64,000 nucleotides of DNA, from assembly GCA_028719205.1 (NCBI GenBank), contig JAQUKH010000009.1:1-64000 (forward strand), read 5' to 3'. The notes beneath the pieces are model-generated. The model saw only the letters and a program-made list of their open reading frames with translations. It ran no database searches and had not been told where the DNA came from. The first letter of the stretch is position 1, and each line of letters starts with the position of its first letter. This document shows, in pieces, positions 1 through 36,956 of this stretch. A program made the position numbers and the translations under genes. The DNA comes from a bacterium (GTDB lineage: Bacteria; JACRDZ01; JAQUKH01).

Positions 1-1
1 T

Positions 2-11190: not shown

Positions 11191-11547
11191 ATGATGAACG
11201 ATTATACTGGAGTTCTTATTTTCTTAATAATAGCCATAGGTTTTGTGGCTATTATGTTTTCTGTAAGTTATGTTTTACGCCCGAGTAAACCCGATTTGAA
11301 AAAACTCCTGCCTTATGAATGTGGAAATATAGTTAACGAAGATGCCCGCGGACTTGTTTCAGTCAAATACTATCTAATAGCTATTATCTTTGTTCTTTTT
11401 GATGTAGAAACTGCTTTTATGTTTCCCTGGGCAGTTGTCTTCAGAGATTTTGGAATGTTTGGTTTAATTGAAATGGCTATATTCCTTTTAATTATTTTAA
11501 TCGGCTTTTGTTATGCATGGAAGAAAGGTGCTTTAGAATGGGATTAA
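11191..11547 (+). CDS. nuoA: NADH-quinone oxidoreductase subunit A
   Basis: NuoA is a three-helix membrane subunit at the junction between arm and membrane of complex I. The 118-aa product has the conserved loop [29 protein letters not shown], a variant of the YECG loop near the quinone tunnel, and the [17 protein letters not shown] helix with its acidic residues. Length is standard. It is the first gene of the locus and overlaps nuoB by 10 bases. Confidence 0.95.
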
Positions 11548-12017
11548 TAGAAAATAAATTTGAAAAAAATATTTTAATTACTTCTGTTGATAAATTATTT
11601 AATTGGGCGCGCACGCGCTCTTTATGGCCGATGACGTTCGGATTGGCCTGCTGCGCGATCGAGATGATGGCTGCGGGAGGCGACCATTATGATCTGGATA
11701 GGTTTGGTATGGGAGTGTTTCGGGCTACTCCGAGGCAGGCGGACGTTATGATCGTGGCTGGGACGGTTACAAAAAAAATGGCGCCTATCGTCAGGCATCT
11801 TTATGACCAGATGCCTGAGCCAAAATATGTGATCGCTATGGGAAACTGCGCCATAAGCGGTGGTATTTTTAAAACATATAGTGTTGTGCAGGGAGTTGAG
11901 AAGATTATTCCGGTAGATGTTTATATACCGGGGTGCCCGCCGCGGCCGGAGGCTTTATTTTATGGCCTGTTTAAACTTCAAAAAAAGATTGAAAAAGAAA
12001 CAATCGCGAAAAAATAG
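11538..12017 (+). CDS. nuoB: NADH-quinone oxidoreductase subunit B
   Basis: NuoB carries cluster N2, the last iron-sulfur centre before quinone. The product shows [10 protein letters not shown] (two adjacent cysteines), [10 protein letters not shown] and [11 protein letters not shown], which give the four ligands. The chosen ATG at 11538 has AAGGTG upstream and gives [11 protein letters not shown]; an earlier in-frame ATG at 11508 lies deep within nuoA and is unlikely. The length of 159 aa is normal. Confidence 0.95.
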
Positions 12018-12020
12018 ATT

Positions 12021-12491
12021 ATGGATATACAAAAGGATGTTGTAGAAAAAATAAAAGAGCGTTTCCCTGATGCGGTGAAAGATGTTTCTTCTTTCCGTGA
12101 CCAGCAGACAATAGTGGTAGATAAGAAATTTATTATTGATGTCTGTAAGTTTTTGAAAGAAACGCAGGAATTAGATTTTAGTTATTTGGTTGATTTAACG
12201 GCGGTTGATTTTCCTGAAAGAGATGCCCGGTTTAAAATGGTTTATAATTTATATTCAATATCTCAATCTAAAAGAATATTTATAAATGTGAATGTTGATT
12301 TGGATGATTTGGTTGTTCCTTCTCTTACCTGTTTATGGGAATCCGCTAATTGGGCAGAACGTGAAGCCTATGATATGTTTGGAATAAAATTTTCAGGGCA
12401 TCCGAATCTAAAAAGGCTTTTTATGCCGGAAGATTTTGAAGGATTTCCTTTGCGTAAAGATTTTTTATTGGATGGGGAGGGCTTAGAATAA
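12021..12491 (+). CDS. nuoC: NADH-quinone oxidoreductase subunit C
   Basis: The 156-aa product is the 30-kDa-type peripheral subunit. The signature SANWAEREAYDMFGIKFSGHPNLKRLFMP is split into W-x-E-R-E-x-Y-D-M-F-G and H-P-x-L-x-R-L. It is separate from nuoD, not fused as in enterobacteria. Spacing to nuoB is three bases and to nuoD one base. Confidence 0.95.
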   Translation: MDIQKDVVEKIKERFPDAVKDVSSFRDQQTIVVDKKFIIDVCKFLKETQELDFSYLVDLTAVDFPERDARFKMVYNLYSISQSKRIFINVNVDLDDLVVPSLTCLWESANWAEREAYDMFGIKFSGHPNLKRLFMPEDFEGFPLRKDFLLDGEGLE

Positions 12492-12492
12492 G

Positions 12493-13665
12493 ATGTTTCA
12501 GCAAAACGAGATGACTATAGAGATGGGCCCCCAGCATCCCAGTACGCATGGTGTGTTGAGGCTTACCTTGCGTATAAGAGGCGAAACTGTTATTAATGTG
12601 GATCCGACGGTAGGCTATCTGCATAGGGGAATAGAGAAGATCGCTGAAAATTTGATGTATACGCAGTTTCAACCTTATACGGACAGGCTGGATTATATTT
12701 CCGCTCCGGCTAACAATTTAGCTTATGTTCAAACGGTTGAAAAATTATTGGGCGTTGACGTTACTCCCAGGGCCAAATTTATACGGGTTATTCTAGCGGA
12801 ATTAGCAAGGATCTCCAGCCATTTAGTATGGTTAGCTACTCATGGGCTTGATCTTGGCGCTATGAGTATGTTCCTTTATTGTTTCCGTGAGAGAGAATTA
12901 ATTATGGACCTTCTTGAGCTTTATTGCGGCTCAAGATTAACAACTACCTGTATGGAAATCGGCGGTGTCCGGGGTGATATCAGCCAGGAATTTATAGACA
13001 AACTTAATGATTTTATAAAGATGTTCCCTGATAAGATCCAGGATTATGAAACTCTACTGACAAAAAACAGGATCTGGTTGAAACGGACAAAAGGTATTGG
13101 AATAGTTTCAGCCGAACAGGCAATTAATTTTGGATTAACCGGGCCGACATTGCGTGGTTCAGGTGTCAAATACGATGTCCGGAAGGCACAGCCTTACGCG
13201 GCATATGACCAAATTGATTTTGAAGTTCCAATAGGTACGGTAGGGGATGTGTATGATAGATATCTTGTCAGAATGGAAGAAATGCGGCAGAGCACTAAAA
13301 TTATCCGGCAGGCATTAGAAAAATTACCGGAGGGATCAGTTAGAGTTCAGGATTCCAGGATCACCAGGCCTGACAAAGCTTTGCTTGCCACCAGTATGGA
13401 AGCTCTTATTCAATATTGTTATTTGATCATGGAAGGAATTATTCCACCCAAAGGAGAAGTTTATTCAAGTGTTGAAGGGTCTAAGGGAGAATTAGGTTTT
13501 TATATTTACAGTGACGGGACGTCTAAACCATATCGTTTAAAAATAAGGACTCCTTCATTTTATAATGTTGGAATTTTGCCCTCTATGGCTAAAGGGGCTT
13601 TCCTGGCTGACATGACGGCGTTTATTGCAAGTATTGATATAGTATTGGGTGAAATAGACAGATAG
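12493..13665 (+). CDS. nuoD: NADH-quinone oxidoreductase subunit D
   Basis: NuoD forms the quinone site with NuoB. The 390-aa product has GPQHPSTHGVLRL with the quinone-site histidine, GYLHRGIEK, and PYTDRLDYIS with the quinone-site tyrosine. The C-terminus is DMTAFIASIDIVLGEIDR. The CxxC pairs that hold NiFe in group 4 hydrogenases are absent at both ends. This makes the whole locus a quinone-reducing complex I rather than an energy-converting hydrogenase, which matters because the extra antiporter genes downstream could otherwise suggest one. Confidence 0.96.
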   Translation: MFQQNEMTIEMGPQHPSTHGVLRLTLRIRGETVINVDPTVGYLHRGIEKIAENLMYTQFQPYTDRLDYISAPANNLAYVQTVEKLLGVDVTPRAKFIRVILAELARISSHLVWLATHGLDLGAMSMFLYCFRERELIMDLLELYCGSRLTTTCMEIGGVRGDISQEFIDKLNDFIKMFPDKIQDYETLLTKNRIWLKRTKGIGIVSAEQAINFGLTGPTLRGSGVKYDVRKAQPYAAYDQIDFEVPIGTVGDVYDRYLVRMEEMRQSTKIIRQALEKLPEGSVRVQDSRITRPDKALLATSMEALIQYCYLIMEGIIPPKGEVYSSVEGSKGELGFYIYSDGTSKPYRLKIRTPSFYNVGILPSMAKGAFLADMTAFIASIDIVLGEIDR

Positions 13666-13673
13666 GAGTTATT

Positions 13674-14627
13674 GTGGCGCTTTTACTTTTAATATTAGAA
13701 TCTCTATTGATATTTGTTTTTATACTACTTTTTTGCGTAGCTTATATAATTTTAGCTGAACGAAAAATTTTGGGGCATATGCAAGGACGTTTTGGGCCAA
13801 TGCATACAGGCTGGCACGGGATGCTGCAGCCGATCGCGGATATCCTTAAATGTTTAATTAAAGAAAATATAATGCCGACGGCGGCTGATAAGATCGTGTT
13901 TATTCTGGCCCCGGTTATGTCAATTTTGCCTGCTATTATGTGTCTGGCAGTTATTCCTTTCAGTAAAAATATCTATGCGGCCGATTTAAATATCGGGGTG
14001 CTTTATCTTCTCGCGCTGGGTTCTTTGGGTGTATACGGAGTAGCCACATGCGGTTGGGCGGGAAATAGTAAATACGGGCTTTTAGGAAGTATCCGTTCCA
14101 CGGCTCAATTAATAAGCTATGAGGTTCCCATGGGCCTGGCTGTTTTAGGGCCCGTTATGATGGCAAGGTCTTTGAATTTGATAAAAATAGTTGAAGCGCA
14201 AAAATCCTTTTGGTACATACTTATTCAACCTGTCGGATTTTTTATTTTCGTGGTATGCTCCGCGGCAGAGACTAATCGTATCCCTTTTGATTTACCTGAA
14301 GCTGAAACAGAGTTGGTCGCGGGTTTTCATGTTGAGTACAGCGGATTTAAATTTGTCGCGTTTTTTCTGGCAGAGTATATGCACATGTTTGTGACATCGG
14401 CTATGGCGGCTATCCTGTTTTTAGGCGGGTGGAAGGGGCCATTTTTCCCGGGGCCTATCTGGTTTATGATCAAGGTCTATTCATTTTTAGTACTTTATAT
14501 ATGGGCAAGAGGGACATTCCCGCGGTATCGTTATGATCAACTGATGCAGTTAGGATGGAAATTTTTGCTTCCGCTTTCTCTGGCAAATTTAGTATTAACA
14601 AGTATAGGAATAGTTATTTTTGGATAA
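13674..14627 (+). CDS. nuoH: NADH-quinone oxidoreductase subunit H
   Basis: NuoH is the eight-helix membrane subunit next to the quinone tunnel. The 317-aa product has AERKILGHMQGRFGPMHTG, the E-rich channel loop ETNRIPFDLPEAETELVAGF and a later ARGTFPRYRYDQLM. The start is a GTG at 13674 behind TAGGAG. The gene follows nuoD by eight bases. Confidence 0.95.
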   Translation: MALLLLILESLLIFVFILLFCVAYIILAERKILGHMQGRFGPMHTGWHGMLQPIADILKCLIKENIMPTAADKIVFILAPVMSILPAIMCLAVIPFSKNIYAADLNIGVLYLLALGSLGVYGVATCGWAGNSKYGLLGSIRSTAQLISYEVPMGLAVLGPVMMARSLNLIKIVEAQKSFWYILIQPVGFFIFVVCSAAETNRIPFDLPEAETELVAGFHVEYSGFKFVAFFLAEYMHMFVTSAMAAILFLGGWKGPFFPGPIWFMIKVYSFLVLYIWARGTFPRYRYDQLMQLGWKFLLPLSLANLVLTSIGIVIFG

Positions 14628-14630
14628 AAT

Positions 14631-15101
14631 ATGGGTAACTTTTTAGAAAAAATATTTTTATTGGAACTTTTTAAAGGGATGGGGGTAGTCTTTAAGCATG
14701 TGTTTATTAAGCCTGTTACAAGAATGTATCCTTTTGAAAAGCCGGTTTTGCCTAATTCTTCCCGCGGGCTGCATACTTTAATGCGTGACGCGGATACCGG
14801 GAATGAGCGTTGTGTCGGATGTTCATTATGCGTAAAGATATGCCCCAGCGGTGTGATCCATATGGTTACATCAAAAGGTGAAATGAATCAAAAACGGATA
14901 GATGAATATGAAATTGATATCAGCCGGTGCGCGTTTTGCGGTTTATGCGTGGATATTTGTCCTAAGAGCGCGATTGTTATGTCTGACCGTTTTGAGTTAG
15001 CTGTTTATGATAGAAAAAATTTATCATATAACAAGAATTTACTTTTAAAGATCGGTGAAGTGAAACAGAAGGAAAGTAAAGAGAAAGGAAAAGACAAATA
15101 G
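14631..15101 (+). CDS. nuoI: NADH-quinone oxidoreductase subunit I
   Basis: The 156-aa product carries two ferredoxin-type 4Fe-4S motifs, CVGCSLCVKICPSG and CAFCGLCVDICPKS, which form clusters N6a and N6b on the route to N2. The N-terminal amphipathic helix region and length are standard. It ends in a lysine-rich tail and its stop overlaps the GTG of nuoJ by one base. Confidence 0.95.
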   Translation: MGNFLEKIFLLELFKGMGVVFKHVFIKPVTRMYPFEKPVLPNSSRGLHTLMRDADTGNERCVGCSLCVKICPSGVIHMVTSKGEMNQKRIDEYEIDISRCAFCGLCVDICPKSAIVMSDRFELAVYDRKNLSYNKNLLLKIGEVKQKESKEKGKDK

Positions 15102-15616
15102 TGAAACAGGTTGTGTTTTTTATACTCTCTATTATTTCAATTTTTTCGGCATTAATGGTTATCAGCCGGAAAAACGTTGTTCACAGCGCGCTTTCTCTGG
15201 TTTTATTATTTTTCTCAACTTCAGGGCTTTTTGTTTTAATAGGGGCGGAATTGGTAGCCGCGCTGCAGATTTTTCTTTATGCCGGCGCTATAATAGTTAT
15301 CTATCTTTTTGTTATCATGATGATAGACCTGAGAAAAGGAACAACCGATGATATCGGTACAATGCCTAAGATGTTTATTGTCGGCGCGGGGGTTTTATTT
15401 TTCGCGGAAATAATTTATTTACTTTCAAAAGCAAATTACTCCGGGATCAAGGATATTTATTCCGGTGAAAAAATAAAAGAGTTAGGCGGCATGACTGGAG
15501 TTTTAGCAAAAATAATGTATACAAAATATTTATACCCGTTTGAGATAGTTTCACTGATTTTACTTATAGCCATGATCGGGGCGATCGTTTTAGCAAAAAG
15601 GGCGGATAAAAAATGA
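15101..15616 (+). CDS. nuoJ: NADH-quinone oxidoreductase subunit J
   Basis: Five-helix membrane subunit of complex I. The conserved helix LVAALQIFLYAGAIIVIYLFVIMM corresponds to the third helix with its pi-bulge; the acidic residue stands in the preceding GAELVAAL. 171 aa, GTG start, four-base overlap with nuoK. Confidence 0.92.
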   Translation: MKQVVFFILSIISIFSALMVISRKNVVHSALSLVLLFFSTSGLFVLIGAELVAALQIFLYAGAIIVIYLFVIMMIDLRKGTTDDIGTMPKMFIVGAGVLFFAEIIYLLSKANYSGIKDIYSGEKIKELGGMTGVLAKIMYTKYLYPFEIVSLILLIAMIGAIVLAKRADKK

Positions 15617-15915
15617 TACCTTTATATTATTATACTATTTTAAGCGCGGTTTTATTTGTGATCGGCCTTATCGGATTTTTGATAAGGAGGAATATAATTC
15701 TTTTGTTCATGAGCATTGAGGTTATGCTGAACGCGGTTAATATTAATTTAGTGTCATTTTCATCTTATTATGATTCTTTAGACGGGCAAATACTTTCAAT
15801 ATTTGTTATGGCGATAGCGGCGGCAGAAGCCGCGGTAGGATTTGGTATACTTATTGCGTTTTATCGTAATAAGAATGTAATTGACAGCGATAAGGCTGAC
15901 TTAATGAAATGGTAA
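15613..15915 (+). CDS. nuoK: NADH-quinone oxidoreductase subunit K
   Basis: The 100-aa product has three helices with the two conserved glutamates of the MrpC/NuoK family, in LLFMSIEVMLNAVNINLV and AIAAAEAAVGFGILI. It links the quinone module to the antiporter chain. The first antiporter gene follows after six bases. Confidence 0.95.
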   Translation: MIPLYYYTILSAVLFVIGLIGFLIRRNIILLFMSIEVMLNAVNINLVSFSSYYDSLDGQILSIFVMAIAAAEAAVGFGILIAFYRNKNVIDSDKADLMKW

Positions 15916-15921
15916 AAATAA

Positions 15922-17421
15922 ATGGATAAAAATAACATGATGGTCCCTATACTTATTATTTTTCCCTTGATCTGTACCGCGCTTGTAACATTTTTCGGCG
16001 AGAAAAACAAATTTACGCGTAATTTGTTCGCTATGATCCCGGCGCTGGTTACGTTTATTCTTGTAGTTAAATTAGCACCGGCGGTTTTAGACGGGGAAAG
16101 ATTCTATTTTACGTTTATAGACCGCGCGCCTTTTTTAATTCAATTCCGTATAGATTGTTTCGCGCTTTTAATGCTTATCGTTGTATCGTTTTTATGGATA
16201 TTTACTGTTTCGTACTCATATGGATATATGGCGGATGAGCATTCCCAGACACGGTATTATACCGCGTTGACCGGCTGTTTAGGAATAGTTGTCGGAATAG
16301 TTGTCGCGGCAAATTTATTTACGCTGTTTATTTTCTTTGAAATATTTACCTGTTGCGTTTATCCGTTAGTAATACATGAAGAGACCGATGAGTCATTTCG
16401 GTCCGGTGTAATGTATGGGGCTTATCTTTTAGGCGGAGGTTCTCTTATTTTCGCGGGGATGTTATTGCTATATTATTATTCAAACGGAAATTTAACATTT
16501 ACTAATTTTGGTATCCCGGGATTGGCTTTGGCGCCAAAATGGGCGCTATATCTTATGTTTTTTCTTTTCATGGCGGGTTTCGGCGTGAAGGCCGCGATCA
16601 TGCCTCTGCATGCGTGGCTCCCGCGGGCGATGGTGGCTCCAACCCCGATCAGTGCCCTTCTTCACGCGGTAGCAGTAGTAAATATGGGGCTTTACGGGGT
16701 AATAAGGGTTATTTACAATATTTTTGGGCCACAGTTATTCTCAGCCCTTCAGATGGATACCATTTTAGCCATTTTTGCCGCGATGACGATCATAAGCGCG
16801 GCGCTTATCGCTTTAAGGCAGAAGCAGATTAAGAAAATGCTGGCATATTCAACAGTTAACCAGTTGAGTTATGTTATTCTTGGTGTTTCCTCGGTGAATC
16901 CATACGCTTTTATGGGCGCGCTACTGCATATTTTTTATCACGCGCTTATGAAAATTACTTTATTTTATTCCGCTGGAACTATAATTAAACAGACCGGAAA
17001 GACTGATCTTAAGGATATGTCCGGGCTAGCCAAAAAAATGCCGATCACTTGTTTAGGTTTTACGATCGGCGCTATCGGGATAATCGGATTGCCGCCGATC
17101 GCAGGATGGATAAGTAAATGGAATATGGTTGAAGGATTTCTGAAAATTAACCAGCCTGTACTGGCGACAGTTTATATGATAAGCAGCATAATTGAATTAG
17201 GATATTTTTTACCTCCCATACTATGGGCATATTTCGGGAAAGAGATAGAATATGATCCTAAAAAATATAAAGTTGATAAACAAAAATGGGAAGCACCTGT
17301 TAACATGCTGGTCCCGATCGGCATGGTAACAATATTGTCTCTGGCTTTTGGATTATTCGGCTCGGTTCCGGTTCAGTTGTCAAAGGCTGTGGTAGCGGAA
17401 TTGCTAACAAAGACCTTTTAA
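15922..17421 (+). CDS. Extra antiporter-like complex I subunit, MrpD/NuoM type (first of the additional three)
   Basis: This 499-aa protein has about 14 membrane helices of the proton-conducting antiporter family. The glutamate of helix 5 is present (IFFEIFTCCVYP), the lysine of helix 7 is in GFGVKAAIMPLHAWLPRA, and VAPTPISALLHAV precedes helix 8. A lysine-rich loop (RQKQIKKMLAYSTVNQLSY) is typical. It occupies the position where nuoL usually lies, but it has no lateral helix and ends after helix 14. The sequence is closest in appearance to MrpD. It is the first of six related genes in a row. Confidence 0.88.
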   Translation: MDKNNMMVPILIIFPLICTALVTFFGEKNKFTRNLFAMIPALVTFILVVKLAPAVLDGERFYFTFIDRAPFLIQFRIDCFALLMLIVVSFLWIFTVSYSYGYMADEHSQTRYYTALTGCLGIVVGIVVAANLFTLFIFFEIFTCCVYPLVIHEETDESFRSGVMYGAYLLGGGSLIFAGMLLLYYYSNGNLTFTNFGIPGLALAPKWALYLMFFLFMAGFGVKAAIMPLHAWLPRAMVAPTPISALLHAVAVVNMGLYGVIRVIYNIFGPQLFSALQMDTILAIFAAMTIISAALIALRQKQIKKMLAYSTVNQLSYVILGVSSVNPYAFMGALLHIFYHALMKITLFYSAGTIIKQTGKTDLKDMSGLAKKMPITCLGFTIGAIGIIGLPPIAGWISKWNMVEGFLKINQPVLATVYMISSIIELGYFLPPILWAYFGKEIEYDPKKYKVDKQKWEAPVNMLVPIGMVTILSLAFGLFGSVPVQLSKAVVAELLTKTF

Positions 17422-17433
17422 CGAAGGGGGCGT

Positions 17434-18921
17434 ATGTTTCTGTCACCTAATTATTTACCTTTAATTGCAATTGTTGTCCCGATCATATCTATTTTGATCA
17501 GGCCGATAGTTGAGAACAAAAAGCATTATTTAGTGGCGTGCATAGCGCATTCTATAAGTTTTCTATGTGTGCTTGGAATGTATCCTTCAGTTGTCATGGA
17601 AGGAAAAACACTGGAAATTTTGTTTGACACAGGACTTGGGCCTCAATTACATTTCAGGGCTGATCTGGTCGGTTTCTATTTTGCTTTTGTCGCGTCTTTC
17701 ATGTGGGTACTGGCATCCATTTACTCTATTGAGTATATGAAAAAGGAGCATGAGGAGAGGAGATTTAATATATTTTCTTCTCTGTCTTTTGCTGGTATGC
17801 TCGGTGTTGTTTTTACCGGGAATTTATTCAGTTTATATTTGTTTTTTGAATTACTGACTGTGTCCTCATCAGTTCTTGTGTTTCATGAACAGAGCGAAGA
17901 GGCTATACGGACCGGATTAAAATATCTTTTTATGGGAGTTTTTGGCGGGCTGCTTTTGCTTTTTGCGATCATTGCTACATATTCAGTAGCGGGGCATGGA
18001 GATTTGAATAATTTAGGGATAAAGGAATTGCAGTCGTCACCGCTTTTGATGTTTATTTTCTGGGGATATATTATCGGGTTTGGTGTAAAGGCCGGAATGT
18101 GGGGTGTCCATATATGGCTTCCCAGCGCGCATCCGATCGCGCCCAGTCCCGCATCAGCTTTGCTTTCAGGCGTAATGATCAAGGCCGGGGCTTATGGGAT
18201 TTTTAGAACAGTGTATAATATTTTTGGCGCTGAATTTTTGGGCCAGAATCATGTGTTTATGATAAATTGTGTTCTGATGCTTGGGCTCGCGGGTATTTTT
18301 TACGGGTCGGCGGCGGCTATTACACAGAAAGAGCTGAAGAAAATGCTGGCTTATTCGAGCATATCACAGATAGGTTATATTATTATGGGGATAGCCCTTC
18401 TGACTAAAAATGGATTAGAGGGCGCGTTGATACATGTTTTGAACCATGCAATATTCAAAGGGCTTTTGTTCTTTTGCGCAGGGGCTTTTATATATAAAAC
18501 AGGAAAACGGCAATTAAGCGATTTAAAAGGAATTGGGAAGATAATGCCGAAAACAACATTAATGTTTACAATAGCCGCGGCGTCGATTATCGGGCTTCCG
18601 CTATTTAATGGTTTTGTCGGTAAATGGTTTTTGGCATGGGGGGCATTGGACGCGGCAAAGGCCGGAGTGTATGGAAAAAGCACAGGTATCGTTGCCTTGG
18701 GAGTTCTTCTTTTAAGCAGTTTAATGAATTTAGTATATTATGCTCCGATAGTTATCGGCGCGTGGTTTGGGGAAGCGGGAGAAGTATCTGATAAAAAGGA
18801 TCCAAATTTTTTAATGCTGATACCTATGTATATTTTGGGCGCGCTTATTTTGATCTTAGGTATTGCCCCGGCAATACCCGTAAGTATTTGTCAAAGAATT
18901 GCGGGAGGATTTTTCCAATAA
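17434..18921 (+). CDS. Extra antiporter-like complex I subunit (second)
   Basis: 495 aa and about 14 helices. Key residues are conserved: LFFELLTVSSSVLV (helix-5 glutamate), GFGVKAGMWGVHIWLPSAHP (helix-7 lysine) and IAPSPASALLSGVMIKAG (helix-8 region with a lysine). KELKKMLAYSSISQIGY follows. It resembles the third copy (19413) more than the first, for example FAGMLGVVFTGNLFSLYL is shared with only small changes, so copies two and three probably arose by duplication. The stop codon overlaps the next start by one base (TAATG). Confidence 0.88.
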   Translation: MFLSPNYLPLIAIVVPIISILIRPIVENKKHYLVACIAHSISFLCVLGMYPSVVMEGKTLEILFDTGLGPQLHFRADLVGFYFAFVASFMWVLASIYSIEYMKKEHEERRFNIFSSLSFAGMLGVVFTGNLFSLYLFFELLTVSSSVLVFHEQSEEAIRTGLKYLFMGVFGGLLLLFAIIATYSVAGHGDLNNLGIKELQSSPLLMFIFWGYIIGFGVKAGMWGVHIWLPSAHPIAPSPASALLSGVMIKAGAYGIFRTVYNIFGAEFLGQNHVFMINCVLMLGLAGIFYGSAAAITQKELKKMLAYSSISQIGYIIMGIALLTKNGLEGALIHVLNHAIFKGLLFFCAGAFIYKTGKRQLSDLKGIGKIMPKTTLMFTIAAASIIGLPLFNGFVGKWFLAWGALDAAKAGVYGKSTGIVALGVLLLSSLMNLVYYAPIVIGAWFGEAGEVSDKKDPNFLMLIPMYILGALILILGIAPAIPVSICQRIAGGFFQ

Positions 18922-19403: not shown

Positions 19404-19412
19404 GAGATATTA

Positions 19413-23464: not shown

Positions 23465-23471
23465 GAGAAAT

Positions 23472-25007: not shown

Positions 25008-25012
25008 TTTTT

Positions 25013-26938: not shown

Positions 26939-26956
26939 TCAATTGTGGAGATATAA

Positions 26957-28231: not shown

Positions 28232-28272
28232 ATAGCCGTTTGTGAATAGTAGAAAGAAAAATAGGAAGGATT

Positions 28273-31200
28273 ATGGTCAAAATAACAATAGATGGTAAAG
28301 AGGTTCTTGTTCCTGAAAATATAAATATTTTAGAGGCCGCGCAGCAGGCCGGTATTTATATACCTAAATTATGTTTTCATAGCAAACTAAGCCGGTACGG
28401 GGCCTGCAGGGTCTGTCTGGTTAAGATAGAAGGGGTTCCAAAATTATCGGCCGCTTGCGCTGTTATGTGTACGGAAGGAATGATCATAACTACTGATACC
28501 CCTGAGATAAATAAACTTAGAAAAACTGTAGTTGAACTTATGCTTTTGTATCATCCTCTGGATTGCCTGGTTTGCGATAAGGGCGGGGAGTGTGAGCTTC
28601 AGACTCTGACATTCAAGCTGGGAGTTACGGAAGACCGGTTCAAAATGCATTTCCAGAAATATGAGAGAATTGATGTTAATCATCTTATCGCGCGGGATAT
28701 GAAAAAATGTATTCTTTGCGGTAAATGTGTCAGGGTTTGTGATGAGATCCGCGGGAGGGGTGCGATCGGTTACACTTATCGCGGTTTTAATACCCGTGTA
28801 GATTTTCCATTCGGCCGTGTTTCGAATTGTGAGGTTTGCGGGCAGTGCCTTGCGGTCTGTCCTGTCGGAGCTTTGGCACCGCGATTTTCTGAATATGAAG
28901 CAAGGCCGTGGGAAATGAAACAGGTGAAAAGCATATGCCCTTATTGCGGATGCGGCTGTACGGTTATTTTAGATACTAAAGAAAATAAGATTGTAAGGAT
29001 CTCTTCTAAAGAAGGGCTTGGTGTTAATGACGGGAAGGTATGCGCGAAGGGCAGATTCGGGTATGATTTTGTAAATAATAAGTTCAGGTTAAAATATCCC
29101 CTGGCAAAAAAAGACGGGATGTTTGTTCCTGTGACATGGGATGAAGCATTAGATTTAATTGCCAATAATTTTAAGGAAATAACAGAAAAATACGGCAGTG
29201 ATAAAATTGGCGGCATTGGATCAAACCGGGTTACAAATGAAGAAAGTTATTTATTCCAGAAATTCATGCGGGCAGTCTTAAAGACAAATAACGTAGACAG
29301 CCAGATAAGAATCGAACACGCGGCTTCTTTCAAGGCATTAACTGATAGTTTTGGGTATGGAGCGGCTACTAATACCATACCGGAGATAGAAAATACAAAG
29401 GTTATTTTATTAATAGGAACAGATACTACTGAGACTATGCCTATTATTGGATTAGCAATTAAAAAAGCCATTAGAGCGAACAAGGCAAAATTAATTGTTA
29501 TTAACAGCCGCGAGATCGACCTGACAAAGTTTTCAGAAATGTGGTTTCAGGTAAAACCCGGGATAGAGCTTTTACTGCTTTCAGCCATGTTAAAGATAAT
29601 AATTGATGAGAAACTTTATAACGTGTCTTTTGTGGAAAAACGGACAGAAGATTTTGAAAAGGTAAAAATTAAACTCGAAAAATTATCCCTGGATAATGTG
29701 CAAAATGTAGCGGGGATCAGCAAGGAAAAAATTCAGGAGGCGGCAAGGCTTTACGCGGGCGCGGAAAGCGCGATGGTGATTTTCGGCCTTGAATTTGTTT
29801 TGCAGGAAAGAGCAGTTGATAACGTTTACACGCTGGTCAATCTGGTACTTGCATGCGGCCATATAGGTAAAGAAAATAACGGGATCATTCCCCTGCGCCA
29901 GACAAATAACGGCCAGGGAACTACAGATATGGGTGTTCTCCCGGATTATCTTCCCGGATATCAGTCAATATATTCTTCTTCAGTAAAAAATGATTTTGAA
30001 AAAAAGTGGAATACAAAACTTCCGGTTAATGTCGGTTTGACTGCCACAGAGATGATCCAGGCTATTCCTGAAGGGAAAATAAAGGGAATGTATATTGTCG
30101 GCTGTAATCCCGCGGTCTCCCATCCAAACGCGATACAAGTGGAAGAAAATTTAAAATCACTGGATTTTCTTGTTGTGCAGGATATATTTCTTTCTGAAAC
30201 AGCAAAGCTTGCGGATGTTGTTCTGCCCGCGGTAAGTTTCGCGGAAAAGGAAGGGACATTTACTAATACTGAGCGCAGGGTCCAGAAAATAAATAAGGCT
30301 ATAAAATCTTCCGCTGAAACCAGGCCGGATTGGAAAATAATCGTAAATCTGGCTATGAAGTTCGGATATGTAATGGAATATCTTTCAATAGAAGAAATAT
30401 TCCAGGAAATGACAAGCCTGGTTCCTATTTATAGAGGAATAACCTATTCAAGGCTTGAAGAAAAAGAACCTATATACTGGCCATGTGTTTCTCTGGAAGA
30501 TAAAGGCACGAAAATTTTATATCTGGACAGTTTTGAACGTGGAAAAGCAAAGTTTCATCCTGTTGAATATAAATATTCTACTTCACAGCCGACATTGCAT
30601 TTTCCTTACCGTATTATCACTAACGGTACCTTATTCCATCATAGAAGCGGGGTTATGACCAGAAGGTCAAAAGGAATGAGTTTTGTTGAGGAAGAGCCGA
30701 AATTATGTGTGCATCCTAATGACGCAAAGAAATTAGAGATAGAAGATAATTCGATAGTCAGGGTGGCAAGCAAGCAGGGCGAGATAGAAACTAAGGTTTT
30801 TGTTACAAATAAAGTTATGGAAGGAATGCTATTCCTGCCTTTGCACGCGAATTGGAATTCCTGTTTTAATATGCTTACTAAATCGACGCTGGATCCTTCA
30901 TCAAAGTCTCCTAATATGGAAGAAACCTTTGTGGATGTTATTCCTGTTACCAGAAAAAAAGAAATGGTGACTTTGAGCGTTAATGATAAAGAAATTACCG
31001 TTGAGCAAGGTACTACAATTCTGGAAGCCGCGAAAAAACTTGATATTTATATTCCAACACTTTGTTATCACAGTAAAATGTCTCCATTTGGCGCGTGCAG
31101 GCTTTGCCTTGTTGAGATCGAGGGAACAAATAAATTATTAGCCTCATGTATTACGCCTGTGTTAAATAACATGAAAGTTAAAACTGAGACGGATCCCGTG

Positions 31201-33639
31201 CGAAAGCTCCGGAAGATGATACTGGAACTTCTTTTAGCGAAACACCCTGTGGATTGTTTGGTTTGTGACAAAGGCGGGGAGTGTGATCTGCAGAAGCTTT
31301 CTTTTCTGTATGGTCCTGAAAGGAACCGTTTTGGCGCGCAGACACAGGAAAGTGTAACGGACGATACAAGAACATTAGTTGAACGGGATATGAGCAAATG
31401 TATTTTATGCAAGAAATGTGTCCGTGCGTGCAGTGAGATGCAGGGTGTAAATGCGATCGCGTTTTCACGAAGGGGTTTTAAGACAGAGATGGGGACGTTT
31501 TTCGGCAGGGGATTGGATTGTGAATTTTGCGGCAGATGTGTTTCTGTCTGTCCGACAGGGGCGTTAGCCAATAAGTTATCAAAACACGCCGCGCGGCCCT
31601 GGGAGATGAAAGAGTTTTCTACAATATGTTCCTACTGCGGGTGCGGGTGCAGTATGGTGTTAAATATAAAGGATAACAAGATCGTCAAGGTTACCGCTAA
31701 AGAAGGGGCAGGTATAAATAACGGAAATTTGTGCGTGAAAGGCAGATATGGTTATACCTATGTAAATGATCCGGAAAGACTGACTACGCCTTTAATTAAA
31801 AGAAGCGGGAAATTTATGCGCGCTTCATGGGAAGAGGCGATTAAATTAATAGCCTCTAAGTTTAAAACGATAAAGGAACAGGCTGGGCCGGATTCAATTA
31901 TGGGATTGGGTTCGGCATATTGCACTAATGAAGATAATTATTTGTTCCAGAAATTTATGCGGGCAGCAATTGGGACCAATAATGTTGACACAGCTTGTTT
32001 CCATTATGAACACGCGGCTTCATTAAAGGTTCTTACACAGGTGTTTGGCAGCGGTTCAATGACTAATTCTTTTAATGAAATTGCGAATGCCAAATCGATC
32101 CTTGTTATCGGAACGGATATTACAGAAACTCATCCTACATTCGCGTTAGAGGTTAAACGTGCGGTAAGAGAAAATAACGCGAATTTAATTGTTATCGATC
32201 CGAGACGCATAAAACTTACAAATATCGCCAAATTATGGCTTCGCCCGAATTATGGAACAGATGTGGCATTAATTAACGGTATTATTAATATTATTATCAG
32301 TCAGGGATTGCTGGACCAGAATTTTATTGAGAACCGGACGGAAGGATTCGAGGAATTACAGGAGACTATCAGGGAATATACACCGGAATTTGTTTCTAAA
32401 ATTACCGGTGTCGCGAAAGAAGATATTGTTAAGGCCGCGGAACTGTTTACTTCAAGCAGAAATGGCGCGGTTCTTTATGGAATGGGCGCGACACAGCATA
32501 CGTCAGGATTGCAAAATGTAGCCGCGTTAACCAATTTGATATTATTGACCGGTAATGTCGGCCGGCCGAATGTCGGGCTTTATCCGCTTCGCGGGCAAAG
32601 CAACAGCCAGGGCTCCTGCGATATGGGAAGCATTTCTGATTTTCTTCCCGGATACCAGAAAATGAGTGATCTCGCGATGATCAAAAAGTTTGAGAAGGCA
32701 TGGAAGATTACTTTGCCTATGTGGCCCGGATTCAACCTGCCGGAAGCAGTTTCAGCTATGGAGATAGGAAAGGTAAAAGCCCTTTATATTATGGCAGGCA
32801 ATTTGAAGATGAGTTATCCTAATTCCCGCCAGATCGAGGAGAGCTTAAAAAAACTGGAATTTTTGGTAGTTCAGGATATGTTCTTAACAGAGACCGGAAA
32901 AATGGCGGATGTAATTTTACCCTCCTGCAGTTTCGCGGAAATAGACGGGACGTTCACTAATATGGAAAGAAGGGTACAGTTGTTAAGAAAGGCATTGCCT
33001 CCGGTTGGAGAAAGCAAGCCGAACTGGAGAATTATTTCCAATTTATCAAAGGCAATGGGTTATGATATGAATTACAGCAATTCATCTGAAATAATGGATG
33101 AGATCAATCAATTAGTGCCGATATACGGTGGTATTACGCATAAACGTTTAAATAGCCATGGGTTACAATGGCCTTGTCCGGATAAAAATCATCCAGGTTT
33201 GCAATATTTGTATAAACAAGGTTTTCCCAGTGGAAAGGCAAAATTTATTGTGGAACGGTACATACCTATGGCTGAAAAGCCGGATAGAGAATATCCGTTT
33301 TTGTTATCAACCGGAAAATCGCTTTTTCATTATCATACAGGGGTTATGACCCAAAGGTCTCAAGGGATCATGGATGTTTGTCCTGAGGGTTTTATGGAGA
33401 TAAATCCAAAAGATGCGGATATATTGAATTTGAAGGATAAAGATAAAGTTCGTGTAAAATCCAGAAGAGGGGAACTTACTGTAAAAATTATCATAACTGA
33501 TAAAACACCGGATGGCGTTGTTTTCCTTCCTATGCATTTTAAAGAAATTCCGGTTAATGTTTTAACAAACGCTGCATTAGACCCTTATTCTCATGTGCCG
33601 GAGTTTAAATCTTGTGCGGTAAAAGTAGAAAAAATTTAA
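28273..33639 (+). CDS. Double-length NuoG/FdhA-like protein: two complete iron-sulfur/molybdopterin-type halves fused
   Basis: The 1788-aa protein contains two full copies of the NuoG/formate-dehydrogenase alpha architecture: residues 1-896 and 897-1788. Each has a 2Fe-2S domain (CFHSKLSRYGACRVC; CYHSKMSPFGACRLC), a His-Cys3 site (HPLDCLVCDKGGEC; HPVDCLVCDKGGEC), two 4Fe-4S motifs (CILCGKCVRVC and CEVCGQCLAVC; CILCKKCVRAC and CEFCGRCVSVC), a further 4Fe-4S site (CPYCGCGC; CSYCGCGC), a molybdopterin-type domain and a C-terminal beta-barrel. At the position of the formate-dehydrogenase Cys/Sec, both halves have Glu (Glu348 and Glu1246, in EHAAS), although FGYGAATN and FGSGSMTN are kept. Usual NuoG is 700-900 aa. 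An AGGAAGG site precedes the ATG. It would form a doubled electron wire in the complex I arm; any catalytic role is uncertain. Confidence 0.9.
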   Translation: MVKITIDGKEVLVPENINILEAAQQAGIYIPKLCFHSKLSRYGACRVCLVKIEGVPKLSAACAVMCTEGMIITTDTPEINKLRKTVVELMLLYHPLDCLVCDKGGECELQTLTFKLGVTEDRFKMHFQKYERIDVNHLIARDMKKCILCGKCVRVCDEIRGRGAIGYTYRGFNTRVDFPFGRVSNCEVCGQCLAVCPVGALAPRFSEYEARPWEMKQVKSICPYCGCGCTVILDTKENKIVRISSKEGLGVNDGKVCAKGRFGYDFVNNKFRLKYPLAKKDGMFVPVTWDEALDLIANNFKEITEKYGSDKIGGIGSNRVTNEESYLFQKFMRAVLKTNNVDSQIRIEHAASFKALTDSFGYGAATNTIPEIENTKVILLIGTDTTETMPIIGLAIKKAIRANKAKLIVINSREIDLTKFSEMWFQVKPGIELLLLSAMLKIIIDEKLYNVSFVEKRTEDFEKVKIKLEKLSLDNVQNVAGISKEKIQEAARLYAGAESAMVIFGLEFVLQERAVDNVYTLVNLVLACGHIGKENNGIIPLRQTNNGQGTTDMGVLPDYLPGYQSIYSSSVKNDFEKKWNTKLPVNVGLTATEMIQAIPEGKIKGMYIVGCNPAVSHPNAIQVEENLKSLDFLVVQDIFLSETAKLADVVLPAVSFAEKEGTFTNTERRVQKINKAIKSSAETRPDWKIIVNLAMKFGYVMEYLSIEEIFQEMTSLVPIYRGITYSRLEEKEPIYWPCVSLEDKGTKILYLDSFERGKAKFHPVEYKYSTSQPTLHFPYRIITNGTLFHHRSGVMTRRSKGMSFVEEEPKLCVHPNDAKKLEIEDNSIVRVASKQGEIETKVFVTNKVMEGMLFLPLHANWNSCFNMLTKSTLDPSSKSPNMEETFVDVIPVTRKKEMVTLSVNDKEITVEQGTTILEAAKKLDIYIPTLCYHSKMSPFGACRLCLVEIEGTNKLLASCITPVLNNMKVKTETDPVRKLRKMILELLLAKHPVDCLVCDKGGECDLQKLSFLYGPERNRFGAQTQESVTDDTRTLVERDMSKCILCKKCVRACSEMQGVNAIAFSRRGFKTEMGTFFGRGLDCEFCGRCVSVCPTGALANKLSKHAARPWEMKEFSTICSYCGCGCSMVLNIKDNKIVKVTAKEGAGINNGNLCVKGRYGYTYVNDPERLTTPLIKRSGKFMRASWEEAIKLIASKFKTIKEQAGPDSIMGLGSAYCTNEDNYLFQKFMRAAIGTNNVDTACFHYEHAASLKVLTQVFGSGSMTNSFNEIANAKSILVIGTDITETHPTFALEVKRAVRENNANLIVIDPRRIKLTNIAKLWLRPNYGTDVALINGIINIIISQGLLDQNFIENRTEGFEELQETIREYTPEFVSKITGVAKEDIVKAAELFTSSRNGAVLYGMGATQHTSGLQNVAALTNLILLTGNVGRPNVGLYPLRGQSNSQGSCDMGSISDFLPGYQKMSDLAMIKKFEKAWKITLPMWPGFNLPEAVSAMEIGKVKALYIMAGNLKMSYPNSRQIEESLKKLEFLVVQDMFLTETGKMADVILPSCSFAEIDGTFTNMERRVQLLRKALPPVGESKPNWRIISNLSKAMGYDMNYSNSSEIMDEINQLVPIYGGITHKRLNSHGLQWPCPDKNHPGLQYLYKQGFPSGKAKFIVERYIPMAEKPDREYPFLLSTGKSLFHYHTGVMTQRSQGIMDVCPEGFMEINPKDADILNLKDKDKVRVKSRRGELTVKIIITDKTPDGVVFLPMHFKEIPVNVLTNAALDPYSHVPEFKSCAVKVEKI

Positions 33640-33655
33640 AAGTGAGGTGACTAAA

Positions 33656-34126
33656 ATGACAGATGTAAAATTCATCAAGAATATTTCGATTTTTAAAGAT
33701 CTGGATGATGAAGAAGTAAAAAAAATCGCGGGCATCGCTACTGAAAAAACATATCCCGCTAAAACAGTTATTTTTACTGAGGGACAGACAGGCGCGAAAT
33801 TGTACATTGTTAAACAGGGGAGTGTTAGAATAACTAAGGTAATCCGGGAAGGGGAAAAACAGATTTTGGATATAATCGAAGAAGGGGAATATTTCGGAAA
33901 GATGTCTTTCATTGATGGCGGGGAACATTCAGCTACAGTCGAAACTGTTAAAGAATCTACATTAATATGTATTGAAAAAGCAGACTTTGAAAAATTGGCT
34001 CAGGATGATCCAGCCGGTGGTTTCAGAATAATGAAAGCATTGTCGGTTGTTACTATCGAGATATTGCGGGAAATGAATGATAAGTTTGTTGAGTTAGTAA
34101 ATTATATGTGGGGTGGAAGGAGATAG
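33656..34126 (+). CDS. Single-domain cyclic-nucleotide-binding-fold protein (first)
   Basis: The 156-aa product is a CNBD with no DNA-binding domain: KNISIFKDLDDEEVKKIAGI, then AKTVIFTEGQTGAKLYIVKQGSVRI, then the phosphate cassette EYFGKMSFIDGGEHSATVET. Compared with CAP-type sites, the ribose-binding Glu is Lys (FGK) and the cyclic-phosphate Arg is His (EHSA), so classical cAMP binding is doubtful. The C-terminal helix ends NYMWGGRR. The ATG at 33656 follows GAGGTG; an in-frame GTG at 33647 would add three residues. It lies 16 bases after the fused NuoG and 12 before the second NuoE, so it belongs to the complex I operon. Confidence 0.85.
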   Translation: MTDVKFIKNISIFKDLDDEEVKKIAGIATEKTYPAKTVIFTEGQTGAKLYIVKQGSVRITKVIREGEKQILDIIEEGEYFGKMSFIDGGEHSATVETVKESTLICIEKADFEKLAQDDPAGGFRIMKALSVVTIEILREMNDKFVELVNYMWGGRR

Positions 34127-34138
34127 GAGCGAAAAAAT

Positions 34139-34648
34139 ATGGTTATAGAATATGTTGCGGCTAAACAAACGAGTTTTGATACAACCAAAGCGTTAGAGAT
34201 AATAAAACAGTATAAAGGTAAACGTGGGTCATTAATTTCAGTTCTGCAAAGGATCCAGGATGCCTATGGATTTTTGCCTGAGCCGATATTGGACCTGGTT
34301 GCTGAAGGCTTGAATGTTTATCTGACAGATGTATATGGGGTAGTAACTTTTTATTCACAATTTTATTTGACGCCTCGGGGTAAAAACGTTATAAGGATTT
34401 GTCGCGGGACGGCATGCCATGTAAAGGGATCAGACAGAATTATGGAGAAATTGCTTGAAAAACTGGAAGTTAAGCCCGGGGAGATGACAAGAGACGGGAA
34501 TTTTACCATAGAAGAGGTTGCGTGCCTTGGCGCGTGCGGTATGGCGCCTGTTATGGTAATTAATAAAGATACATTTGGAGAGGTTACCACTGCTAAATCT
34601 TTAGAGATTGTTGAAAGCCACAGTGTTAACAAGGGAGAGAAAAAATGA
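34139..34648 (+). CDS. NuoE/HydC-like 2Fe-2S subunit (second copy)
   Basis: 169 aa, same fold as the NuoE at 26471, with the ligands ICRGTACHVKG and ACLGACGMAP. GVVTFYSQFYLTPRGKNVI and KPGEMTRDGNFTIEEV are typical of the HydC/HndA group of bifurcating enzymes as well as of NuoE. An AGGAG site lies before the ATG at 34139. It overlaps the next gene by four bases, so it forms a pair with the HydB-like protein. Its presence means the locus has two complete NADH-module pairs. Confidence 0.85.
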   Translation: MVIEYVAAKQTSFDTTKALEIIKQYKGKRGSLISVLQRIQDAYGFLPEPILDLVAEGLNVYLTDVYGVVTFYSQFYLTPRGKNVIRICRGTACHVKGSDRIMEKLLEKLEVKPGEMTRDGNFTIEEVACLGACGMAPVMVINKDTFGEVTTAKSLEIVESHSVNKGEKK

Positions 34649-36444
34649 ATCTGGATGAAGAGATAAAAGATGATAGAGTTCAGATATTAGTTTGTCTTGG
34701 AACAGGCGGACAAGCCGCGGGCGGAGACGCGGTTATTCATAAATTTGAAGAAGAAGTAAAAAAACACCACATTGACGCGGTGGTACAAAAGCCGTGTGTT
34801 GTAAGTAAGTCAGGATGCCGCGGTCTTTGCGCGAAGGATCTGTTGGTTGATATAATTATGCCTGGAAAAGGCCAGCATACATATATGAAAGTTACTAAAG
34901 AAATGGTTGTAAGGATCGTTGAGGAAGATATCCTGCAGGGAAATCCGATCCAGGAATGGCTGGTAACGGATGATTACCATAAATTTTATGATACTCAGGT
35001 ACGTAATATATTAAGCAGGTGCGGCAAAATTGACCCTGAAAATATTGATGAATATATTTCTCATGGCGGATATAAGGCATTAAGAAAAGTATTATTTGAG
35101 ATGACTCCTGATGAAGTAATTGAGGTAATAACAAATTCTAAATTAAGAGGCCGCGGAGGAGCCGGTTTTCCTACCGGAATGAAATGGAGTTTCGCGAAGA
35201 TGGCCCAGGCCGAGCATAAATATGTTGTTGTTAACGCGGATGAAGGAGATCCGGGCGCGTTCATGGATAGGAGCGTTTTAGAGGGTGATCCGCATTCAGT
35301 AATTGAAGGATTGATAATTGCCGCATACACTATGGGCGCTACTCATGGTTATTTTTACGCGCGGGCGGAATATCCTTTAGCTATAAAAAGGCTGGGGATC
35401 GCTCTTGAACAGGCAAGAGAAAAAAATTTATTAGGGAAAAATATCCTTGGCAAAGATTTTAATTTTGATATTGAAATTAAAGAAGGCGCCGGCGCGTTTG
35501 TCTGCGGCGAGGAAACCGCATTGATGGAATCAATTGAAGGGAAAAGAGGTATGCCGAGGATCCGGCCTCCTTTTCCGGCACGCAAGGGGTTATGGGAATC
35601 TCCTACAAACATTAATAATGTCAAAACCTATGCCAATATTCCTCTTATAATTAACAAAGGCGCGGAATGGTATCTTAATTTAGGGACAAAAAAAAGCCCG
35701 GGAACCGCGATCTTCGCGCTTACAGGGAAGATCAAAAATACCGGATTGGTAGAAGTCCCGATGGGTATGACATTACGGGCAATTATTTTTGATATATGCG
35801 GCGGTATGAGCGGGAAGAACCGAAAGTTTAAGGCTGCGCAGTTGGGCGGGCCTTCAGGCGGATGCCTTCCTGAGTCTCTTTTAGATACGCCTATTGATTT
35901 TGATTCATTAACTGCTGCCGGCGCTATGATGGGTTCCGGAGGTATTGTAGTTATGGATGATACTACATGCATGGTTGACATGGCGAGATTTTTCTTACAG
36001 TTCACGCAGAATGAGTCATGTGGTAAATGCACTCCCTGCAGGATAGGAACCCGCGCCATGCTTGAGATCCTTACAAGAATAACGGAGGGCAGAGGCCAGC
36101 CGAATGATATGGATTTACTCGCGGATATGGCCGGTGATATAAAAATGGCGTCACTTTGCGGTTTAGGACAGACCGCGCCAAATCCGGTACTCAGCACCCT
36201 CAGGTATTTCCGTGATGAATATGAGGCTCACATTATAGAAAAGCGATGTCCGGCAAGTTCATGTGTTAACCTGCTGAAATTTGAAGTTAATCCGAAACTT
36301 TGCAAAATGTGCGGTATTTGTATGAAAAATTGTCCGACCCAGGCAGTTATCTGGGAAAAGAAAACTGTCGCGAGAATAGATAAACCTAAATGTATAAAAT
36401 GCAGAACCTGCATAGATGTTTGTCCGTTCAGGGCAATAGGATAA
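34645..36444 (+). CDS. HydB/NuoF-like flavoprotein with C-terminal ferredoxin domain (second NuoF)
   Basis: The 599-aa protein has, in order, an N-terminal thioredoxin-like domain, a NuoF core (GRGGAGFPTGMKW, NADEGDPGAFMDR, CGEETALMESIEG), an SLBB segment, a 4Fe-4S site (SCGKCTPCRIG and CGLGQTAPNP), and two ferredoxin clusters (CKMCGICMKNC, CIKCRTCIDVC). DPGAF and the ferredoxin tail mark the HydB/HndC/bifurcating group. In the N-terminal domain the second cysteine is replaced (CLGTGG instead of CxGTGC), leaving three of four ligands. No HydA hydrogenase gene is present, so its partner is probably the fused NuoG-like protein. NAD(P)H specificity cannot be told. Confidence 0.87.
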   Translation: MNLDEEIKDDRVQILVCLGTGGQAAGGDAVIHKFEEEVKKHHIDAVVQKPCVVSKSGCRGLCAKDLLVDIIMPGKGQHTYMKVTKEMVVRIVEEDILQGNPIQEWLVTDDYHKFYDTQVRNILSRCGKIDPENIDEYISHGGYKALRKVLFEMTPDEVIEVITNSKLRGRGGAGFPTGMKWSFAKMAQAEHKYVVVNADEGDPGAFMDRSVLEGDPHSVIEGLIIAAYTMGATHGYFYARAEYPLAIKRLGIALEQAREKNLLGKNILGKDFNFDIEIKEGAGAFVCGEETALMESIEGKRGMPRIRPPFPARKGLWESPTNINNVKTYANIPLIINKGAEWYLNLGTKKSPGTAIFALTGKIKNTGLVEVPMGMTLRAIIFDICGGMSGKNRKFKAAQLGGPSGGCLPESLLDTPIDFDSLTAAGAMMGSGGIVVMDDTTCMVDMARFFLQFTQNESCGKCTPCRIGTRAMLEILTRITEGRGQPNDMDLLADMAGDIKMASLCGLGQTAPNPVLSTLRYFRDEYEAHIIEKRCPASSCVNLLKFEVNPKLCKMCGICMKNCPTQAVIWEKKTVARIDKPKCIKCRTCIDVCPFRAIG

Positions 36445-36479
36445 AAAATATAAAATAGATAGGATGAAAGGAGAAAACC

Positions 36480-36956
36480 ATGGTAGATAAAGCGGTGTTA
36501 AAAAATATTCCACTTTTTAAAAATTTGGATAATAAAGAATTGGATGTAATTGCCAAGATCGTTAAAGAGGAGGCTTACCCTTCAGAAGAGATAATTTTTA
36601 GCGAGAATATGCAGGGCGGCAGGTTATTTATTATAAAAAAGGGAACGGTTAAGATAAGTAAGACCCTAAGGGAAGGCGAGAGGCAAAATCTGAATATACT
36701 TAAGGAAAATGAGTTTTTTGGAGAATGTTCTTTTATTGATTCCAGGCCGCATTCAGCTACGGCGGAGACCTTAAAAAATACCGATTTATTTATTATAGAA
36801 AAATCAGATTTTGATAAATTAGAAGAAACTAATCCTATGTGCGGCTATAAAGTTTTAAGGACTCTGACTTTAACCATTAATGGTATTCTCCGGCAAATGG
36901 ATGAAAAATTTATTGATATGGTTAAATATGTTTGGGAATACGGAAGCAAATCTTAG
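36480..36956 (+). CDS. Single-domain cyclic-nucleotide-binding-fold protein (second)
   Basis: 158 aa, paralogous to the protein at 33656: KNIPLFKNLDNKELDVIAKI, then IIFSENMQGGRLFIIKKGTVKI, then FFGECSFIDSRPHSATAET. The ribose-binding Glu is kept (FGEC) but the phosphate Arg is again His (PHSA). No helix-turn-helix follows; the C-terminal helix ends in FIDMVKYVWEYG, like NYMWGG in the paralogue, which suggests a shared docking helix. An AAAGGAG site precedes the ATG. It closes the complex I locus, with the HydB-like gene 35 bases upstream. Confidence 0.85.
   Translation: MVDKAVLKNIPLFKNLDNKELDVIAKIVKEEAYPSEEIIFSENMQGGRLFIIKKGTVKISKTLREGERQNLNILKENEFFGECSFIDSRPHSATAETLKNTDLFIIEKSDFDKLEETNPMCGYKVLRTLTLTINGILRQMDEKFIDMVKYVWEYGSKS

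Follow-up and report, generated by a model that had tools for sequence, protein, structure and literature searches.

A run of genes at positions 11191–36956 of the window (the whole 64,000-nucleotide stretch that was analysed; contig JAQUKH010000009.1, assembly GCA_028719205.1) probably encodes a single hybrid respiratory complex I that would operate as a low-gear, reversible pump. All genes are on the + strand with intergenic gaps of −40 to +41 bases, and every named gene is an intact open reading frame (ORF) in a six-frame listing, with families assigned from NCBIfam and Pfam. The order is nuoABCDHIJK, ap1, ap2, a gene for a 160-residue membrane protein, ap3, apL, nuoM and nuoN, followed by nuoE1, nuoF1, a gene for a 1788-residue NuoG1–NuoG2 fusion, CNBD1, nuoE2, nuoF2 and CNBD2, where ap1–ap3 and apL denote antiporter-type genes and CNBD a cyclic nucleotide-binding domain. 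A first-pass annotation of the window had placed the listed genes correctly, each intact and of the expected family, and its single strand with gaps under about 45 bases also holds; its gene list stands as given apart from the small membrane protein (18921–19403), which it omitted. The search of related genomes that it proposed returned an identical order, including the 1788-residue fusion, in a second species of the same genus (G001). The proteins of G001 are 77–91% identical to those of the genome of the window (G000), with lower values of 66% for the small protein and 76% for apL, which bears repeats, and the same intact order rules out an assembly artefact.

The quinone-binding and proximal proton modules of complex I are encoded by nuoA, B, C, D, H, I, J and K (11191–15915). 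NuoB, C, D, H, I and K match their models above or near the NCBIfam cut-offs, and NuoB (CC..C..C), NuoI (two 4Fe-4S motifs) and NuoD (GPQHPSTHG) retain their signatures, giving a quinone-type NuoB/C/D/H/I set with Fe–S ligands as in complex I. NuoM (23472–25007; TIGR01972, 614 bits) and NuoN (25013–26470; TIGR01770, 439 bits) are also above their cut-offs, and in a tree of 73 antiporter sequences each falls with genuine members of its own family, whereas NuoL is not represented. When eight genomes were searched with the NuoL model (TIGR01974), canonical NuoL was found only in G002, a genome of the same phylum (692 bits against a cut-off of 407.5), where it sits in an ordinary nuoABCDHIJKLMN run; no protein of G000, G001 or G390–G393 exceeds the cut-off in that search. 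G390, G391 and G392 belong to a second phylum, and G390 has 15 matches to the NuoL model genome-wide. Six antiporter-type genes are thus present as first annotated, and they comprise three MrpD-like proteins, one apL-type protein, NuoM and NuoN, without a canonical NuoL.

The remaining four antiporter proteins are related to Mrp antiporters. ap1 (15922–17421; best matches PRK07234/PRK08375), ap2 (17434–18921) and ap3 (19413–20963) are MrpD-like subunits, and apL (20960–23464; 834 residues) has a NuoL/MrpA/HyfB-like core (residues 1 to ∼520) followed by a long, repeat-bearing C-terminal extension with a NuoL-type end. For all four, the top-scoring models are of the MrpD/MrpA/HyfB type, and the NuoL cut-off is missed by a wide margin. 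The best PDB match of ap2 is 6cfw_H, an Mrp-type subunit of MBH, and the matches that Foldseek retrieves with the apL core model are the expected ones, MrpA/D and NuoL/ND5. Three of the four, ap1, ap2 and apL, cluster in the tree with free Mrp copies of the same genome (support 95–97), suggesting that the block either came from an Mrp cluster or exchanged sequence with it. The free Mrp cluster on contig C12 of G000 encodes MrpE-F-G-B-C-D and, after these, relatives that are 48–53% identical to ap1, ap2 and apL. With four large antiporter subunits (positions 5231–14808 of locus L040, which is C12:20000–39900), this cluster is longer than the usual MrpA–G set, and its repeat-bearing apL is without a NuoL anchor. 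The extra antiporters of the first-pass annotation are therefore real, but its doubled chain is better described as a four-protein Mrp-derived block in place of NuoL.

Between ap2 and ap3, the 160-residue protein has a signal-like N-terminus and C-terminal transmembrane (TM) segments, with no Pfam or NCBIfam match. Homologues with 20–31% identity lie beside ap2/ap3/apL in most related antiporter clusters, and in two phyla a weakly similar small protein adjoins the antiporters in clusters of the nuo type as well as the Mrp type.

The residues expected of ion-transferring subunits are retained: E140, K223, H248 and K399 in ap1, E139, K219, K250 and K397 in ap2, and E140, K223, K254 and K399 in ap3. 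TM5 Glu and TM7 Lys are kept in all six antiporters, the five other than NuoN have Lys or His at the aligned TM8 positions, and the TM12 Lys is kept, with Glu in NuoM (Glu405) as in the NuoM of G002. The TM8 His typical of NuoL/MrpA is found on ap1 (His248) and is absent from apL, which carries the anchor described below, so the features of NuoL are split over two proteins.

In Escherichia coli, NuoL has a long amphipathic helix that is fastened to the proximal end of the membrane arm by the last helix of the protein (PMC3274701). The apL of the window ends in a NuoL-type signature, RKLQTGRVSSYAY, with QTG at residues 809–811 and a last TM segment. Among 17 apL proteins (six from nuo operons, nine from Mrp or other non-nuo settings in two phyla and two fragments of unknown context), this QTG/last-TM end occurs in 6/6 nuo-operon copies and in none of the nine Mrp or other non-nuo copies or the two fragments; most Mrp-type apL proteins end instead in H-x-GD-[IV]-S-x-Y-[IV]-x-W. 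The span from the end of TM14 to QTG is 180 residues in the canonical NuoL of G002, 203–235 in loci with five antiporters (contig C24 of G390, G391 and G392) and 307–358 in those with six (G000, G001 and contig C50 of G390). This trend, as read from the sequences, is as expected of a helix that spans more subunits, though it is not exact. The G001 extension (apL at positions 15170–17851 of locus L034) contains four near-identical 25-residue repeats of the GGMWEVFGRADTNYDSMLGEAIQKQ type and that of G000 contains two, a pattern of apparent recent tandem expansion. A ruler of one repeat per antiporter (25 residues, ∼37 Å as a helix) was rejected, as the repeat numbers of G000 and G001 differ and their antiporters do not.

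We take the block as part of complex I on the basis of the NuoL-type anchor of apL, the position of the block at the place of nuoL and the absence of canonical NuoL. The same three observations offset the grouping of extra antiporters with free Mrp proteins, which the first-pass annotation had named as evidence against its proposal and which is literally what the tree gives for ap1, ap2 and apL. That grouping, together with the existence of Mrp complexes as stand-alone antiporters (PMC7419157), would also suit two machines sharing one operon, namely an ordinary complex I without NuoL alongside an independent Mrp-like Na+/H+ antiporter built from ap1, ap2, ap3 and apL. We regard this as unlikely, since MrpB, C, E, F and G are not among the ORFs of the locus yet are present in the separate C12 cluster, the anchor occurs only on nuo-operon copies of apL, canonical NuoL is missing, and in two phyla the block is flanked by nuoK and nuoM.

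The second phylum provides an independent view of the arrangement. apL-type genes were found in 9/9 of its genomes examined, and three contigs (G390:C24, G391:C36 and G392:C113) share the order nuoJ-nuoK-ap1-ap3-small protein-apL-nuoM-nuoN. A further locus, G390:C50, reaches six antiporters by another combination, K-M-M-N-ap1-ap3-small-apL. In G392, nuoA-nuoH-nuoE1-nuoF1-NuoG1-NuoG2-CNBD-E2-F2-CNBD precedes nuoJ, with NuoG1 and NuoG2 as adjacent genes sharing one base (NuoG2 is frameshifted in that assembly). The recurrence of the combination suggests that the machine is real, and the linkage of the full set in two phyla with the cassette differently placed argues that its components function together. 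Among 386 genomes sampled around G000 and 385 around G392, apL was found only in the two phyla at E ≤ 1e-75, a threshold that would miss more divergent cases. In the apL core tree, the complex I copies from one phylum do not join those from the other, and a single origin of all complex I-type apL is weakly rejected (approximately unbiased, AU, test; p 0.031). The ap1 tree unites them with weak support (79/83) and does not reject a single origin. Both an ancestral block, or its transfer, followed by exchange or gene conversion with local Mrp copies, and two separate recruitments remain compatible with these trees.

Downstream of nuoN, the locus encodes two electron-input heads. The first is ordinary: NuoE1 (26471–26938; TIGR01958, 166 bits) and NuoF1 (26957–28231; TIGR01959, 561 bits), an NADH:flavin mononucleotide (FMN) subunit that has GEPGTFKDR and is devoid of ferredoxin-type extensions, the second B2 Cys and the other BfuB features. 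The second consists of NuoE2/BfuC of the HydC type (34139–34648; assigned from PF01257 and alignment) and NuoF2/BfuB of the HydB type (34645–36444). NuoF2 comprises a thioredoxin-like ferredoxin domain, an FMN domain, the B2 site and a C-terminal pair of [4Fe-4S] motifs. Its N-terminal thioredoxin-like domain has four Cys, with one Cys of the usual motif shifted; the B2 site shows the penta-coordinate pattern His-x5-Cys-x4-Cys, and GDPGAFMDR carries the Ala/Met pair. These features match the set described for BfuB (PMC8880783, PMC9304861), and the solved structures nearest to NuoF2 across its whole length are those of HydB-type subunits, several from bifurcating enzymes. A spurious second NuoF is ruled out by the full Bfu feature set, and a BfuB with the B1–B5 cluster ligands is present with a BfuC inside the nuo operon. 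NuoE2F2 is thus expected, from its sequence, to use ferredoxin with NADH. The doubled NADH modules of the first-pass annotation hold for module 1; module 2 is of the BfuBC type, expected to handle NADH and ferredoxin together. It is not encoded apart in the close relative, where operon and fusion are the same, and it also lies within one nuo operon in another phylum (G392). Another BfuBC-type pair with a NuoG-like protein, which has Glu at the Mo site, lies apart from the nuo operon at positions 6960–11977 of L043 (G000:C11).

The 1788-residue protein (28273–33639; residues 1–894 and 895–1788) contains each NuoG/FdhA domain twice, as annotated, with the qualification that its C-terminal domains are FdhA-type without the catalytic Cys/Sec. 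Both halves keep the ligands for the [2Fe-2S], the His-Cys3 [4Fe-4S], two further [4Fe-4S] and the N7-type clusters. Both also have Glu at the catalytic Cys/Sec site of formate dehydrogenase, and neither has the Cys/Sec Mo/W ligand of Hyl/Fds-type enzymes, which rules out a formate dehydrogenase role for the protein. In the tree, half 2 clusters with NuoG2 of G392 (98/99) and outside the Cys/Sec enzymes (100/99), while half 1 lies among NuoG-like proteins without resolution. Since half 2 is 43–50% identical to HylA/FdhA-type proteins and F2/E2 resemble their partners, E2-F2-NuoG2 could be imagined as a soluble bifurcating formate dehydrogenase or transhydrogenase fused to NuoG1 by accident. 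Such an origin is very improbable: aligned formate dehydrogenase relatives (five and further ones) keep Cys (G002 FdhA, G000:C28, Scalindua) or Sec (L001, L010), whereas Glu replaces the ligand in both halves, and the unfused NuoG2 of G392, within a nuo operon, also has Glu.

In HydABC, two HydA subunits are connected through His-ligated clusters 9 Å apart (PMC9499530), and the fused NuoG1–NuoG2 could by analogy be wired like this pair. The electrical connection of paired HydA, together with the presence of the NuoG pair as one polypeptide in G000 and G001, which tethers the heads, makes it improbable that the membrane arm takes NuoE1F1G1 or NuoE2F2G2 by donor and never both, an arrangement to which the single NuoI and single NuoB as electron receivers and the G390:C24 locus, with one NuoG and no E/F, would lend themselves. 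Flanking the second head are CNBD protein 1 (33647–34126; PF00027, 84 bits) and CNBD protein 2 (36480–36956; PF00027, 74 bits), neither of which has a DNA-binding domain. From their position in both phyla, we guess that they are likely to be regulatory or structural subunits.

In the proposed hybrid complex I, the quinone module and NuoH/A/J/K/N/M would be ordinary, and distal NuoL would be replaced by Mrp-derived ap1, ap2, ap3 and apL with the small membrane protein. apL would be the most distal subunit, sending an elongated lateral helix back along the arm to be anchored proximally by its NuoL-type last helix, and all six antiporters retain charged residues that serve in ion translocation. 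NuoE1F1 would oxidize NADH, and the BfuBC-type core of NuoE2F2 would oxidize it jointly with reduced ferredoxin (confurcation) or operate in reverse. The fused NuoG dimer would join the two heads, both halves acting as Fe–S wires rather than formate dehydrogenases, probably connected like the two HydA of HydABC. The presumed acceptor is menaquinone, and each pair of electrons would move at most seven ions (six antiporters plus the NuoH/A/J/K channel). The reading of the first-pass annotation, an enlarged complex that has extra ion-pumping modules and a second entry for electrons, is partly supported and is the best-supported interpretation. The complete version, an enzyme of about 22 subunits that pumps at most seven ions per two electrons, uses the NADH and confurcating heads together through the fused NuoG wiring and is controlled by its CNBD proteins, is a tentative proposal, in some part of which we would expect to be wrong.

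A menaquinone gene (MqnA/D family) is present in G000, G001, G391 and G392, and no heme-copper oxidase was found in these four genomes. With potentials of −280 mV for NADH, about −500 mV for ferredoxin and −74 mV for menaquinone (PMC9304861), we compute that two electrons passed to menaquinone release ∼0.41 eV when NADH is the donor, 0.63 eV when NADH and ferredoxin contribute equally and 0.85 eV when ferredoxin is the donor. For seven ions, these energies balance potentials of about 59, 90 and 122 mV, respectively, compared with 103, 158 and 213 mV for four ions. The enzyme would therefore run forward at low proton-motive force, helped by ferredoxin, or in reverse at ordinary proton-motive force, making ferredoxin and NADH from menaquinol. 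For Nitrospira, reverse flow to ferredoxin has likewise been proposed for its 2M complex (PMC12342949, PMC7784846). G000 also encodes a V-type ATPase K subunit (C18, locus L082, positions 1348–1950) with LPGTQG/YQG/ETY and a second V/A-type ATPase (C1, L086). The K-subunit motifs presumably resemble the Na+ site of Enterococcus NtpK, and a sodium circuit in this genome is possible.

Several observations weigh against the hybrid pump. The apL extension differs by 51 residues between G000 and G001, which have the same six antiporters. The long extension, QTG end and last TM segment of a lateral helix with a proximal anchor are present, but the helix is without a confident model: AlphaFold2 prediction of apL, among the six antiporters of the window, yielded the core only, with pLDDT < 50 from residue 530 on. 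From the apL core tree, the arrangement may have arisen twice. The CNBD proteins have His at what we take to be the phosphate-binding Arg position of CAP-type domains, so their ligand binding is uncertain. Lastly, a seven-ion stoichiometry from NADH to menaquinone stalls above ∼60 mV, and not all antiporters need be coupled. That energetic limit would also suit a complex whose additional antiporters are incorporated without being coupled, or serve chiefly as structure, so that no more ions are pumped than by an ordinary complex I; we consider this rather unlikely, as the charged residues tested are kept in the six subunits, as expected under selection for ion transfer.

Comparison with known systems suggests a complex I variant near the 2M and Nuo-Bfu forms that fails a defining feature of each. 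The locus shares with ordinary complex I (NDH-1, 14 subunits) the quinone module, NuoH/A/J/K, NuoM, NuoN and NuoE/F/G functions in one run, but it differs in lacking canonical NuoL, in having six antiporters rather than three and two input heads, and in adding the fused double NuoG, two CNBD proteins and the small membrane protein. 2M complex I has four antiporter subunits (Chadwick, 2018, via PMC7419157 and PMC12342949) and shares the surplus antiporters and their gear-ratio logic. The 2M form duplicates NuoM; the locus has a single NuoM, and so not the set of two NuoM, NuoL and NuoN, with an Mrp-derived block for NuoL and six antiporters. G390:C50 combines two NuoM, as in 2M, with ap1/ap3/apL. 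In the predicted Nuo-Bfu of Geobacter and others, BfuABC replaces NuoEFG with menaquinone as the third substrate (PMC9304861). The locus likewise has BfuB/BfuC-type NuoF2/NuoE2 in a nuo operon and menaquinone as the expected acceptor, but BfuABC has not replaced NuoEFG: NuoE1F1 and NuoG1 are retained, and NuoG1 forms one polypeptide with a BfuA-like NuoG2. ap1, ap2, ap3 and apL are kin to Mrp antiporters by tree, sequence and fold; unlike Mrp, the locus lacks MrpB/C/E/F/G, and with them the MrpA–G set, and its apL has a NuoL-type end. Membrane-bound hydrogenase (MBH) and sulfane reductase (MBS) also join a redox module to Mrp-type antiporter subunits, whereas the locus combines six antiporters with NADH modules and a NuoD of the quinone type. 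In published complexes, antiporter-like subunits number at most four (PMC7419157). In the open-access literature, which excludes most subscription papers, we found no complex I with an Mrp-derived distal block, none with both NuoEF and BfuBC heads and no CNBD genes in nuo operons.

Whether antiporter number sets the ion-to-electron ratio of complex I is a standing question, and a natural six-antiporter form with a same-phylum relative that has ordinary NuoL constitutes a natural gear-ratio experiment. Loss of NuoL with its anchor on an Mrp-type protein would be a route by which complex I lengthens in evolution. The joined heads, one of them expected to use ferredoxin, hint at how menaquinone-using anaerobes drive the pump or reverse it for ferredoxin. 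The locus suggests that an uncultured anaerobe has an enlarged complex I geared to work on little energy, which, if true, would be a form of the enzyme made for living close to the thermodynamic limit.

G000 also contains a second complex I/Hyf-like cluster (C37, L042, positions 1–5411, and the end of C13, L041), whose large subunit seems to be without NiFe cysteines (SGDSSFSHS and DPSFINW); it is possibly an Ehr-type complex split over two contigs. Promoter and terminator scans of the run gave only chance-level matches inside it and decide nothing. Immediately downstream, a TM protein of the LPG synthase TM family (36932–37912 of the window) is encoded with an overlap of 25 bases into the end of the locus.

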